A stretch of 64,000 bases of DNA from Bifidobacterium bohemicum DSM 22767 (GTDB taxonomy: Bacteria; Actinomycetota; Actinomycetes; Actinomycetales; Bifidobacteriaceae), in NCBI RefSeq assembly GCF_000741525.1, contig NZ_JGYP01000002.1, positions 682,001-746,000 on the forward strand. The letters run 5' to 3'. A program made the translations under genes and the position numbers. A model generated the notes under the pieces. The model was not told the origin of the DNA. It did no database searches and saw only the letters and a list, made by a program, of their open reading frames with translations. Every line of letters starts with the position of its first letter. Positions within the stretch are counted from its first letter, which is position 1. This document shows, piece by piece, positions 14,457-38,383 of the stretch.

Positions 14457-14466
14457 CCCCCCCCCC
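14457..14466. repeat. Homopolymer tract, C10
   Basis: Ten consecutive C in a non-coding region. It is one of five G/C tracts of 10-11 bp in this window; such tracts are prone to slipped-strand length change. Confidence 0.9.
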
Positions 14467-24088: not shown

Positions 24089-24962
24089 ATGATCAACCGT
24101 CCGTACTGTCTGTCTTGGCTCGAATGTGAAGCTGCTCTCAAACGAGCTTGCGACGACTGCCGACTGGACGGTACGTGGAGCTGACCATGTTCCCGCTTTC
24201 CTTCGCCGAATATCGCACCACGCGGCCGGAGTCCAAGACCGCCGACCAGACGTTCCAACGGTACCTCACTTACGGCGGAATGCCCTACACGACCCATCTG
24301 AACGACGAACAGAGCATTGACGACTACCTTGGAGGCGTGTTCAACACGATCCTGGTGAAAGGCATCGTGGCAAGACGTCCCAAAATAGACATGCCGGCGT
24401 TCAATGAAGTTGCCGCATTCCTTGCGGACAACGCAGGGAATCTCACCTCGATAACCGACATCGCGAACCGTATGAAACAAGCGCATACCGCGGTTTCACG
24501 CAACACCATACGCGAATACATATCCGCCCTTTGCGACAATTACCTGCTGTTCCGCGCCGACAGATACGACATCAAGGGTAAATCCTATTTGCAAACAACG
24601 GGAAAATACTGCCTCGGCGACCCCGGCTTCAGATTCTGTTTCTTGGCAAATCGGTCGGCGACACCGGTCATCGCATCGAGAACGTGGTCTAGCTTGAACT
24701 GTTGCGCCGCTACCCGACAGTCTCCGTCGGCAAGGCAGGCAATAAGGAGATCGATTTCTGCGCAACCGATGCCGACGGAGTGCACTACTACCAAGTCTCG
24801 CAAACCGTTCTCGACAGCGCGACACTGACCCGCGAGCTTGAGCCGCTGCAAAGCATCAACGACAACCACCAAAAGACCCTGCTGACTCTTGACCGAATCG
24901 GCAATGGCGACCATAACGGCATCAAACAAATCAACCTACTCGACTGGCTGTTGGAGGTTTAA
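24089..24962 (+). pseudogene. Broken DUF4143-type AAA ATPase (internal deletion and frameshifts)
   Basis: The ATG at 24089 begins MINRPYCLSWLECE, the usual N-terminal start of this ATPase family. The next recognisable segment, KLLSNELATT (from about 24127), normally lies after the Walker B region, so about 100 residues holding the nucleotide-binding core are missing. A frameshift near 24155 leads to TGRYVELTMFPLSFAEYRTT, then the DUF4143 region (FQRYLTYGGMPYTTHL, NTIREYISALCDNYLLFRAD). A second frameshift near 24680-24710 leads to RRYPTVSVGKAGNKEIDFCA and the nuclease-like C terminus ending LLDWLLEV. Without Walker motifs the product cannot be an active ATPase. Low-complexity flanks and operator-like repeats upstream mark an accessory insertion. 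Confidence 0.8.
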
Positions 24963-33001: not shown

Positions 33002-34653
33002 TCACGCCCTGTGACGACGCAGCACCAACGCACCGGCCGCGGCCACCAACGATGCCACACCGGCGATCACCACGACGGCCACGGAAGCGCCCGTGCTTGC
33101 GAGCTCGCCACCATTCGCGGCGGCCTTCGGGTCCGTTTTCACATCCGAGGCCTTGTTCGCCGAGGTCGGCGGTGCCGCAGGCTTGGCGGCGATGTTCACC
33201 GCGGTCCACCCGGCAAGATCACCGTTCTGGTCCAGCAGCGCGATCTTGTGCTCGCCGGTCTTGTCGGCGGGCAGCAGCGGCTCGACATAATAACCCTTGT
33301 CATCCTTCTTGACCGTAAGGAACGGCGCGCCGGTCGGATCGGTGAGTTGCGTCGGACTGGAATAGATATAACCCGACCAGAAGCAATCCGGGGTATTTTC
33401 GCCGTCCACATTGGCCTTGCACTGGTCGATGAGCTGCTTGATGTAGATGCGGGAGGGCGAATCGGCCACCGGATTGGAGGGGGCCACCACGTCCCCTTTG
33501 TTGCCGGTATTCAAATCACTATCGGAAGGAGCCTTTGGCTCCGCCTTCGTCGTGAAAGCTGGAATATCGACAAAATGTCCCTCCGTACCGCTCTCAGTTC
33601 CAAAGCCATTAGCAGTACCAGTCCATGATTCCTCGTCGGTCTGGAAGCCAACTCGCATCATCATGATATCAGTATTGATCTTCTGCCCGGCCTTGCCCTG
33701 CTTAACCAGCTCCTGAGCATGAGCCGCGACGATACTGGAAGCGCCTGCCTTGTCCAAGACCTCACCATTTGCGTTGACATTATGATTGTCATAAACTTTG
33801 GATGGTTCCAAACCAACCAAAGTCATATGTTTGGTTCCACTAATATCTCCATCAACTTTCTTGGTATCGCTGAAACGATAGAAGTTCTTATTCTGAACGG
33901 CTGATGCTACCTTGACGCTTTTACTGCCATCAGGAACATAGTGATACCAATTTTGAGAATGCCATCCATAGATTCGCCGATACGCAGTAGCATCGAGCTT
34001 GTCGTCTGAAACACTCCCGGGGTCGGACGAACCTCCAAAATAGTCCGGACTATTCCCCGCGTATGCTTCAGTCGCTGTCGTCTCCGGTGTCATGCTAGTG
34101 ACTTGAAGGAAGTCGACTACTGGCATGTAGGATTTAATTTCCCTGCCGTCTGGATTAAGCATGCCAGGCCGCTTCTGCTCAATCTTATGCTTAATTGTAT
34201 AGTCAAAGGCGATGTCAGCCGTATGAGCGCCAATATCACTGACACGCACATTCGATATGACGACAGAATCCGGCAAGGCAGCGTCTTCGCCGGACTGCGG
34301 ACCGACAGGAACTGACTTGGTCGACGAATCCTTCGCTTGTGGAGATGGGGTTGGAACGGCGGGCTTCTCAGACTTGTTAACCGCGGCGGGCTTGCCGGCA
34401 TCCGTTGCCGTGCCCCCTCTGATTGTCGTGCATGTCGAGGACGATCTTCTGCCCGTCGGACTTGTCGGCCTGGCCCTGCGTGTTCCCGTCGGACTTGTCG
34501 GCCGTCTTAGCGGACGAGGCTACTGGGGGGGGGGGTCACGGAAGAAGGAGAGTTTGGAGCCTCCTCGGCGTTCGCTGCACCCACACCGGCGCCCGCGAAC
34601 ATCATGCACGCCGCCGCAAGAAAGGCGGCGACCGCATAGCGTTTCTTTAACAT
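33002..34653 (-). pseudogene. Sortase-anchored surface protein, out of frame at a C11 tract and at a second site
   Basis: ATG 34653, preceded by AAAGGAAAGGG, starts a signal peptide MLKKRYAVAAFLAAACMMFA then GAGVGAANAEEAPNSPSSVT. A run of eleven C (minus strand, 34535-34525) follows and this frame stops at 34507. Removing one C continues as PVASSAKTADKSDGNTQGQADKSDG... but stops at about 34379. Only a second shift near the five-G run (minus strand, 34417-34413) joins GGTATDAGKPAAVNKSEKP and the long frame to 33002. That frame ends with LASTG, a hydrophobic helix (VAVVVIAGVASLVAAAGALV) and RRHRA: a sorting signal. The body has no pilin motif I can name. As read it is locked off by two shifts: phase-variable, decayed, or mis-assembled at homopolymers. 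Confidence 0.75.
34525..34535. repeat. Homopolymer tract, G11 (C11 in the surface-protein reading strand)
   Basis: Eleven G on the plus strand, 40 codons after the start of the secreted protein. Length changes by one shift the frame. Confidence 0.92.
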
Positions 34654-35083: not shown

Positions 35084-36034
35084 ATGATTCCTTCGTATGT
35101 TTTTTACAAAAAACTGAATAAGGACAATGTCGTCGACGAGGTGATGGCGGAAAGCGCCGTCTTTAACAACGTTTTGAATCAGACCGTTATCAAGTCAATC
35201 TACAAAACCCTCAACGAAAAGCGCCTTCTGCTCCAACGCACCACGCTCACCGATTTCAGGAATTATCTAAGCTCATCCGAAACAGACCTGTTCGAAGAGA
35301 TCTCAATAACCTGCAAAAAAGACGGTAAGACAACAACCAGGCTGGTTACTCGACATAAGGAGGTTTCGCCTTATGCCATAGCGCTCTCCTTGGCCCCACA
35401 CACCTATGCATCGCACTATTCGGCCCTCTACTTGCAGAATCTAACGTTGAACATTCCGAAACCCATCTATGTCAAAAAGAAGGCAACTCGGCCGAAGGCT
35501 ATGCCGGAACCGGAAAAACTGTCTCAAGCGCAACTGGAGAAGACGTTCGCGGTTCCCGCCAAAACAACGAACAGCATATACACGTTCCGTTACAAAGGTG
35601 TCACACGCGAGGTCTATCTTCTCGAAAAATCAGCGACGGTCGATAACGGAATCACGCGAATCTCTGCGCCTCATGCTCCCGCTGGCATCGCGATAAGCGG
35701 CGTGGAGAAAACACTGATCGAATGCGTACTCAAACCGAATTATGCAGGTGGCGCGCAAGAAGTCCTGAACGCATTTTACGCGGCCAAGGATCGCCTGAAG
35801 ATACTGCGGATGATGCAGCTACTTGAAGAAGGCCGCTACTCGCTACCTTACGGCAAAAACATCTTGTTTTACATGGATCGCGCAGGTTACAGCGAACGTC
35901 AGAAGGACTTGGTACGCCAACGCATGAGCCCTGCGACACAAGAGCTCATCACTTATCTTGAAAAAAATATGCATAACCCGGCACTCGACGCGAATATTGG
36001 AATCTACTACCCCGAAAGGATTGCCGTACAATGA
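35084..36034 (+). CDS. AbiEi-like antitoxin / transcriptional regulator
   Basis: A 316-residue protein in the antitoxin position of a type IV AbiE toxin-antitoxin operon. The segment ISAPHAPAGIAISGVEKTLI, ECVLKPNYAGGAQEVLNAFY resembles the conserved core of AbiEi (a short motif near V-E-K-T-L-I-E-C before P-x-Y-A-G-G), and LEEGRYSLPYGKNILFYMDR follows. The N-terminal DNA-binding part (residues 1-90) is less typical. ATG 35084 follows an alternative GTG at 35081. Its stop overlaps the next ATG (ATGA), implying coupling to the toxin gene. The gene is intact although the toxin is frameshifted. Family call is by context as much as by sequence. Confidence 0.7.
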   Translation: MIPSYVFYKKLNKDNVVDEVMAESAVFNNVLNQTVIKSIYKTLNEKRLLLQRTTLTDFRNYLSSSETDLFEEISITCKKDGKTTTRLVTRHKEVSPYAIALSLAPHTYASHYSALYLQNLTLNIPKPIYVKKKATRPKAMPEPEKLSQAQLEKTFAVPAKTTNSIYTFRYKGVTREVYLLEKSATVDNGITRISAPHAPAGIAISGVEKTLIECVLKPNYAGGAQEVLNAFYAAKDRLKILRMMQLLEEGRYSLPYGKNILFYMDRAGYSERQKDLVRQRMSPATQELITYLEKNMHNPALDANIGIYYPERIAVQ

Positions 36035-36875
36035 CGAACGGTCAGCTAACCCACCAAGAAATCATCGAGAGAACTCTCGCGGCGCTCTTTTCAATCGACG
36101 AGTTCGCCGGGAGAATCGCTCTACGCGGCGGACAAGCATTGATCGCATATGGCATAACCACCCGTGCTTCCCAAGACATTGACCTGTTCGTGGAAGAAAA
36201 TACCATCACGGAGGATGAACGTCTTCTCATACAAACTGCACTCGAAGAGCAGTTCGCCGATGTGGACATGGAAGTCAGGCAGTGCAAACTGATACCTCTG
36301 CCAGCCAAGTCTGAGCCAAAAAGCTGGCCAGAATCATAGTCCACGTCGCGCCTCGGAGCAATTCGACCAAAAGCAACCAACAAACACCATGGCAAAGTAT
36401 CACCATAGAGATCTCGTTATCGAATCGAATGTTCTCCCTCGACAGAATCAACTCGGACGGCGTAGGCATTGAAGCCTCTTTGCTCGCGAGACTCGTTGAC
36501 GAAAAACTTCTGTCATTGTGCCAGCACTGCCCAAGCTACACCAAGATACATCCCCGAAGGGGCGAGCAAGGCAATAGCTACCGAGCCAAAGATATGTTCG
36601 ACATATCCTCGATACTAAAAGCAGATCACCAAACACGAGCCCGGATGCTATCCAATGAAGAAATTGAGCATCTTCGACTTTTAATGGGCGATATTGATTT
36701 GACGGCCGGCGATCTTGCCGCTCTCGCCGGGGACATCAGCAATCACGGCGATGAATACGCAACCGAATACGACATGATGAACAGGGATCTTGTTCTCACG
36801 GAGGAACGCATCGCCTTCACCACCGCGAAGAAGGATGTGCTGGACACGCTCCAGGCGGTCTGCGACAAGCTGTGA
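36031..36875 (+). pseudogene. AbiEii/AbiGii-type nucleotidyltransferase toxin, frameshifted
   Basis: MTNGQLTHQEIIERTLAALF, then FAGRIALRGGQALIAYGITT and RASQDIDLFVEE: the G-G and D-I-D residues of the nucleotidyltransferase active site are present. The frame reaches PAKSEPKSWPES and a stop at 36337-36339. Shifting back one base in the A5 run (36318-36322) gives KLARIIVHVAPRSNSTKSNQ...IEISLSNRMFSLDRINSDGV and runs cleanly to 36875 (AKDMFDISSILKADHQTRAR). So one A was lost, or a -1 ribosomal slip at CAAAAAG is used. The toxin is probably inactive, leaving an intact antitoxin partner. Confidence 0.75.
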
Positions 36876-37081: not shown

Positions 37082-38383
37082 TCAGTCCACCAGCGAGCGC
37101 ACTTGAATGATGTGGTCGCGCTGCGGGCCGGTGCCGATGGCGGAGATGCGGCAGTTGGAAAGCTCCTCGAGCCGCTTGACGTAAGCCTGGGTGGCAGCGG
37201 GGAGGTCCTCGAAACGGTGGGCGTGGGAGATATCCTCGGTCCAGCCGGGCATGGTTTCGTAGACCGGCGTGGCCTTGGCGAACGCGGCCTGGTCGACGGG
37301 CATGTCCTCGTAACGGGTGTGTGTGCCGTCGCCGTTGTCCACGTCGTAGGCGACGCAGATCGGTATTTCGTTCAGACCGGTGAGCACGTCGAGCTTGGTG
37401 AGCACGATGTCGGTCAGACCGTTGACCTGCGTGGCGTAGCGCGTCACGACGGTGTCGAACCAGCCGCAGCGGCGCGGGCGGCCGGTGGTCACGCCGAACT
37501 CGTGGCCTTGGTTGCGCAGCCATTCGCCGGCATCGTCGTTAAGCTCGGTGGGGAACGGACCTTCGCCCACACGCGTGACGTACGCCTTGGCTATGCCGAT
37601 GACGCGGCCGATCTTGGTCGGCCCCACGCCGGTTCCGGTGCATGCTCCGCCGGCGGTGGGGTTTGATGAAGTGACGTACGGGTAGGTGCCGTGGTCGACG
37701 TCGAGCATGGTGGCCTGGCCGCCTTCGAACAGGACCGTCTTGCCTTCGTCAAGCGCACGGTTGAGCAGCAGTGACGTGTTGGCGATGTAGGGTTTCAGCC
37801 GCTCACCGAGTTTGAGAAGCTCGTCGGTGGTTTCGTCTACGTCGATTGGGCTGGAGTCGTAGATTTTGACGAGCATCTGGTTCTTCTGGTGCAGGCTTGC
37901 CTCGACCTTGTCGCGCAGGCGTTCGGCGTCCAACAGGTCGTGCACACGGATACCTACGCGGTTGATCTTGTCCGCGTATGCCGGGCCGATGCCGCGGCCG
38001 GTGGTGCCGATCTTGTGCTTGCCTAGGAACCGCTCGGTCACCCGGTCGAGGACACGGTGATACGGGGCGATAATCTGGGCGGACTCGCTCACCCGCAGCC
38101 GCGAACAATCGACGCCACGGGATTCAAGGCCGTCAATCTCCTTGAACAGCACCTCAGGGTCGACCACCACGCCGTTGCCGATGACGGGGGTGACCTGTGG
38201 GTTGACGATGCCGCTGGGCAGCAGGTGCAGCGCGTAGGTCTCGTCACCGACCACCACCGTATGGCCTGCGTTGTTGCCGCCGTTGAACCGTGCGACATAA
38301 TCGACCTTCGTGCCGATAAGGTCGGTCGCCTTGCCTTTGCCTTCGTCCCCCCATTGGGTACCGATAAGAATGATTCCGGGCAT
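37082..38383 (-). CDS. purA: Adenylosuccinate synthetase
   Basis: PurA joins IMP and aspartate with GTP hydrolysis, the first committed step to AMP. The 433-residue length is normal. [20 protein letters not shown] is the P-loop-like start, [20 protein letters not shown] follows, [20 protein letters not shown] is the IMP site, and [20 protein letters not shown] carries the aspartate-binding loop. All are intact. ATG 38383 is preceded by GGAGGTCG. It is a housekeeping gene marking the left edge of the sugar island. Confidence 0.97.

Follow-up and report, generated by a model that had tools for sequence, protein, structure and literature searches.

A minus-strand gene of Bifidobacterium bohemicum DSM 22767 carries a run of eleven C residues between its signal peptide and the remainder of the protein, and a second frame break lies a short distance downstream. 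It occupies positions 33002-34653 of the 64,000-nucleotide stretch analysed here (the window; C2:682001-746000 of the genome, G000). The explanation that we prefer, with about an even chance of being right as a whole, is that the gene is this genome's copy of a conserved protein that is encoded by a single gene, sortase-anchored and predicted to be exposed at the cell surface. A poly-C tract would have arisen in the lineage, separating the signal peptide from the exported part, and changes in tract length by replication slippage would connect the signal peptide to the rest of the protein or disconnect it, as in the pilus switches of Bifidobacterium breve. At the assembled length the two parts would be disconnected. 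An independent and presumably recent second break, probably a product of decay, would cut the linker from the body, so that only a short stub could be made at any tract length. The switch principle is known from B. breve pili, and what is modestly new is that the gene is not a pilus gene and that its coding strand carries C. We regard the feature as a variant of a known switch type, found here in a decaying copy or in one that has been misread, and the pattern across the wider family as the part most worth attention.

The 5' end of the gene (34536..34653, minus strand) comprises the start codon, a Sec signal peptide (MLKKRYAVAAFLAAACMMFAGAGVGAANA) and the first mature residues; the signal peptide at 34653 was judged by eye and by its resemblance to the N-termini of intact orthologues. 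The open reading frame that begins at 34653 runs through the C11 tract (34525..34535; G11 on the plus strand) and stops five codons past it, at 34507-34509. Beyond the tract, the codon score identifies a linker of 36 codons in another frame (KTADKSDGNTQGQADKSDGQK..., 34415..34522, minus strand), scoring +16.1 in its own frame versus -30.5 and -24.3 in the other two. The linker frame runs beyond this segment and is closed by a stop codon at 34377-34379. The body of the surface protein (33005..34414, minus strand) lies in yet another frame and extends over 470 codons without a stop until 33002-33004, this frame being open from just past the tract. Linker and body are separated by the second break, about 110 bases downstream of the tract. 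Its position can be placed only to about 34399-34424, where most of the best changepoints to the body frame fall, an interval that includes a run of five G on the coding strand (C5 on the plus strand, 34413..34417). The frames that can be reached from the tract end at 34520-34522, 34507-34509 or 34377-34379, all before the body, and because of the second break no tract length alone yields the full protein. The in-frame stop at 34520-34522 prevents a direct passage at the tract out of the signal-peptide frame into that of the body, and a body starting at an internal codon would leave out the signal peptide.

Near its C terminus the body carries the sortase motif LASTG (33089..33103, minus strand), followed by a hydrophobic segment and a basic RRHRA tail, the arrangement of LPXTG-type anchors. 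The motif was located with TIGR01167 and the family alignment. The anchor scores 16.6 bits against TIGR01167 (LPXTG; cut-off 15.9, E 0.009), and the L, T and G of the motif are invariant in all seven family members, of which only one is matched by Pfam Gram_pos_anchor. The rest of the body resembles little else: a Pfam search returned no family for it and only weak matches on one or two of the seven family members, the best hit of a sequence profile search of the PDB had an E of 0.91, and a structure prediction of the body from two sequences reached a mean pLDDT of 39 and a pTM of 0.28. The first-pass annotation had described a C11 run directly behind a signal peptide and an out-of-frame body ending in LASTG plus an anchor, and had held that a second shift near 34413-34417 was needed besides a change in the tract; the coordinates, anchor score and changepoints given above bear out each of these points.

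Matches to the family at E 0.001 or better occur in 47 of 112 genomes of the genus, the present one included, many of them covering the C-terminal part only. Orthologues beside shared neighbours were found in six relatives (G081, G082, G086, G089, G090 and G092), at 41-62% identity, and in all six the homology of the body goes together with shared neighbours, as expected for a syntenic surface-protein family. The nearest of the orthologues belongs to the metagenome-assembled genome Bifidobacterium sp. isolate B-bin1, one relative named in an alignment-based scan; a search of genome contigs with the body as a single sequence returned no relative. The neighbour conserved in all six relatives is a gene of the enoyl-CoA hydratase family PF00378 (26966..27787, minus strand), of which only a fragment was matched in G092. 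A gene of the Na/sulphate symporter family PF00939 (31365..32738, plus strand) is shared with three (G086, G089 and G092). A purA-like gene (37085..38383, minus strand; 91-94% identity), which we take from its sequence to encode adenylosuccinate synthetase, lies within a few kb of the orthologue in four (G081, G082, G086 and G090).

All six syntenic orthologues are single open frames with a signal peptide. They read through the linker region in one frame, and their fetched loci contain no G/C run of eight or more; the comparison with intact homologues at 34413-34417 that had been proposed as a check therefore finds the relatives unbroken and without a tract. Since the relatives are intact and lack the tract, the simplest reading is that the tract and both breaks are derived in the lineage of the window. 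For the same reason, all six of the closest orthologues being without a tract, the switch is not conserved. The dN/dS of the body against the nearest orthologue is 0.105; for comparison, three further pairs of orthologues give 0.23-0.25 and the purA-like neighbour gives 0.055. Synonymous divergence in this comparison is close to saturation (dS 2.7), so the low ratio can only suggest that any loss is recent. The stop-free body and the low dN/dS together suggest that the gene, if lost, would have been lost recently.

The closest parallel comes from the same genus. In B. breve UCC2003, slippage of a G tract that separates the signal peptide from the anchored body has been demonstrated for two pilin genes, and tract lengths of 8-13 are tabulated over several species (the accessible text of PMC9187656); the earlier remark that poly-G/C switching of bifidobacterial surface genes has been reported thus agrees with the published record. 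As in bbr_0113a/b and bbr_1889a/b, the tract of the window lies between a Sec signal peptide and an LPXTG-anchored part, with two ORFs in place of one and a change of frame from the signal peptide on one side to the anchored body on the other. The B. breve pilin tracts are 10-11 long (PMC9187656), a length similar to that found here. As its position matches and its length is close, the window tract is likely to slip as well. There are also clear differences. The B. breve tracts are G within the coding sequence (PMC9187656), whereas the window gene has C on its coding strand. The B. breve pilin belongs to a cluster with its own sortase (PMC9187656); in contrast, no sortase or pilin family was matched by any of the 12 nearby ORFs examined in the 24-48 kb region (those at 37.1-38.4 and 40.5-44.9 kb excepted), and among these neighbours the gene is not the first of a pilus cluster with a sortase. 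Finally, one length class joins the two ORFs in B. breve (PMC9187656), but here the second break defeats every tract length, and for this reason the assembled copy misses a defining feature of a working switch. By analogy, the window gene would work like the start of a putative switch, and it is at most a candidate for functional membership of the class. The poly-G tracts described for pilus clusters of B. dentium and B. bifidum likewise sit at sortase-dependent surface genes (in the accessible parts of PMC12104195 and PMC10757668), while the window gene is not a pilus gene. The 5' poly(A) tract of inlA, like homopolymeric tracts at the 5' ends of genes more generally (PMC2831843, as far as accessible), also permits reversible frameshifting, but it consists of A and belongs to another phylum. 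Should the tract be a working switch, bifidobacterial phase variation would take in more than pili: it would include a solitary surface protein, and a tract on the opposite DNA strand.

Homologues of the gene in other genomes show a different placement of tracts. Taking the best match of each genome gave 29 homologous loci (17 further matching genomes yielded no locus), and 14 of these have a G8-G12 tract at the gene start, compared with 0.07 expected in a 350-nt zone. In thirteen (L040-L042, L044, L048-L051 and L054-L058) the last base of the tract lies 55-90 nt ahead of the start codon, at 55-59 nt in ten of them, the start codons having been chosen by eye. One more (L046) has its tract inside the signal peptide, and the remaining 15 have no gene-start tract. 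Like the window gene, these loci encode bifidobacterial surface proteins and carry a G/C tract at their start; they differ in that all 13 upstream tracts are G on the coding strand and lie 55-90 nt before the start. At that distance, such tracts would be expected to influence transcription or the 5' leader and to leave the reading frame unaffected. It is possible, judging from their position, that the 13 upstream tracts are promoter-type phase switches. Five of them share an arrangement of TTGAC(C/T), two bases, the G tract and a TA-box. The tracts are probably not ordinary -35/-10 spacers, since in these five loci TTGAC(C/T) and the TANNNT-like boxes would be only 10-12 nt apart, which is too close. 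A scan of the genus with GGGGGGGGTAKYGTT found 10 sites in 8 of the 112 genomes, none of them in G000, versus 4 for the reversed control, too few for a general tract signature. No report of promoter tracts outside pilus genes was found in literature searches limited to open-licence papers. We tentatively suggest, while holding it to be rather less than probable, that one anchored family has repeatedly gained homopolymer switches (promoter-like, inside the signal peptide, and behind the signal peptide as C), a case of convergent transcriptional and frame-based phase variation. With tracts at putative promoter positions in the wider family, transcriptional and frame-based switching could be compared within one protein family.

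Long G/C runs are strongly over-represented in the window, which contains five of ten or more where 0.16 are expected from base-to-base transitions (P 7.5e-7). The single run of 11 is itself only mildly unusual (P 0.04), and the number of all runs of eight or more is not (P 0.08). Counted by length, there are 268 runs of 4, 65 of 5, 2 of 6, none of 7-9, 4 of 10 and 1 of 11. The whole genome has 19, 11, 28, 44, 2 and 0 runs of 7, 8, 9, 10, 11 and 12, respectively, which makes 9-10 its modal run length. A genus-wide mode at length 10 can be dismissed, as the 111 other genomes contain runs of 8, 9 and 10 in nearly equal numbers (pooled counts of 505, 496, 443, 203 and 58 for lengths 8 to 12). The 44 runs of exactly 10 are the most in any of the 112 genomes, the next highest number being 16 and the median 3. 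Only two of the 46 runs of ten or more exceed that length, whereas a fraction of 0.37 of all runs of length 10-12 do so across the 111 further genomes (P 2e-7, a value that ignores differences between genomes). Comparable genome-specific ceilings, at 9, occur in G087 and G055. Either genomes differ in their equilibrium tract length, or the consensus caps long runs. With 44 runs of exactly 10 and so sharp a ceiling, run lengths in this genome may be artefacts of the consensus, and the excess of tracts may in part be a pile-up at the capped length. The absolute length of 11 for the tract at 34525 is accordingly uncertain, and since the ceiling at 10 suggests misread lengths, to call the gene 'off' at C11 is unsafe. 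If lengths are misread in this way, reading frames assigned across long G/C runs in other deposited sequences are not to be trusted either.

The location of the tracts calls for similar care. Of the 46 in this genome, 44 lie outside called genes, the C11 of the surface gene being counted among them (the gene caller was home-made and misses broken N-termini), and a tract in this genome therefore does not by itself imply a switch. Those upstream of a single called gene have G on the coding strand in 16 cases and C in 5 (P 0.027, without correction for replication strand). Of the others, ten are flanked by divergent genes, 13 lack a downstream gene on either side and 2 fall within genes.

These counts weigh on how the broken gene is to be understood. 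It may be an ordinary pseudogene, inactivated by two indels, its tract incidental in a genome that accumulates G/C runs in unused DNA; we consider this fairly unlikely. The 44 tracts outside called genes, with 13 that have no called gene pointing away on either side, are what such a genome would show, and three tract-bearing surface genes (C4:99405, C2:484134 and C2:498246) are indeed broken further downstream. In the window itself another gene is frame-broken and one truncated, and the called-coding fraction is only 0.76 (home-made caller). A gene merely left to decay is harder to reconcile with a body frame intact over 470 codons at low dN/dS, with a tract placed between signal peptide and body as in the proven switches, and with gene-start tracts in homologues far above chance (14/29 versus 0.07 expected); two further tract genes, at C4:99405 and C5:109284, are moreover joined in frame across their tracts. 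It is unlikely, in our estimate, that the tract length, the second break or both are errors of the consensus and that the living gene is intact or gated by the tract only. Such errors would explain the sharp ceiling at 10 and those at 9 in G087 and G055, and would match the finding that measured tract lengths differ from annotated ones (PMC9187656, in its accessible text) and the coincidence of the second break with C5. On the other side, the break elsewhere in the window at 24.6 kb lies at no long run, and 15 of the 17 window genes that match proteins of relatives are unbroken, the two exceptions being the surface gene and a DUF4143 gene. Indel errors are thus not rampant, and an assembly swamped by frame errors can be rejected.

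As to the second break, its coincidence with C5 means that slippage or a reading error at a short run is possible there. A second regulated slip site, or recoding, with full protein made from a minority of templates or transcripts, seems to us very improbable. The chance of a run of five or more in a random 26-nt interval is 0.025, a figure to be read in the knowledge that the site was chosen after it had been seen, and the low dN/dS of the body also counts in favour of this reading, but runs of five are frequent in the window (65) and the six relatives read the linker in one frame. Decay fits the second break best. Of the two options left by the first-pass annotation, a decayed phase-variable gene is hence favoured by the intact relatives and the other broken genes, while two slip sites have only a common C5 in their favour; its overall interpretation is partly supported. 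The preferred reading is accordingly that of a putative phase-variation site in a copy also damaged by a second break, to which, as stated at the outset, we attach roughly equal weight for and against.

Several other genes of the genome have similar features. Six more tracts lie in or just behind a signal peptide, as judged by eye (C4:99405, C4:212264, C5:109284, C1:12585, C2:484134 and C2:498246). By Pfam names, two of the genes are DUF285, one is DUF7927, two are related lipoprotein-like genes and one is short. In the assembly both DUF285 genes (C4:99405 and C5:109284) read in frame through the tract, which the other four do not. The two DUF285 genes (L066 and L073, respectively) encode related DUF285/List_Bact_rpt surface proteins with a G10 just behind the signal peptide, and in L066 the frame breaks again further downstream, at a point flanked on either side by DUF285. 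The lipoprotein-like genes (L089, C2:484134, and L090, C2:498246) have G10 at an equal place behind the signal peptide, and both are broken downstream in several frames. Within the window, further C10/G10 runs at 14457, 19633, 28941 and 43746 are all outside called genes, those at 14457 and 28941 lying between convergent called genes. The DUF4143 gene (24142-24956) has its frame break at about 24627-24648 relative to a relative in G081 that is about 80% identical, and its N-terminal part is unmatched; no long run occurs at this break (about 24.6 kb). At 35084-36875 an AbiEi-like gene is unbroken, and the adjoining AbiEii-like gene is cut short near 36.3 kb, about 100 codons from its start, likely by a frame break; the piece behind it matches no family, and no long tract is present at the end of the gene (about 36.3 kb). 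Two DUF7927 proteins with hydrophobic C-termini are encoded 3 kb apart (L070, offsets 3003 and 6065; C4:209202 and C4:212264), and both genes have a 10-base tract at the 5' end, one tract being G and the other C when read on the coding strand.
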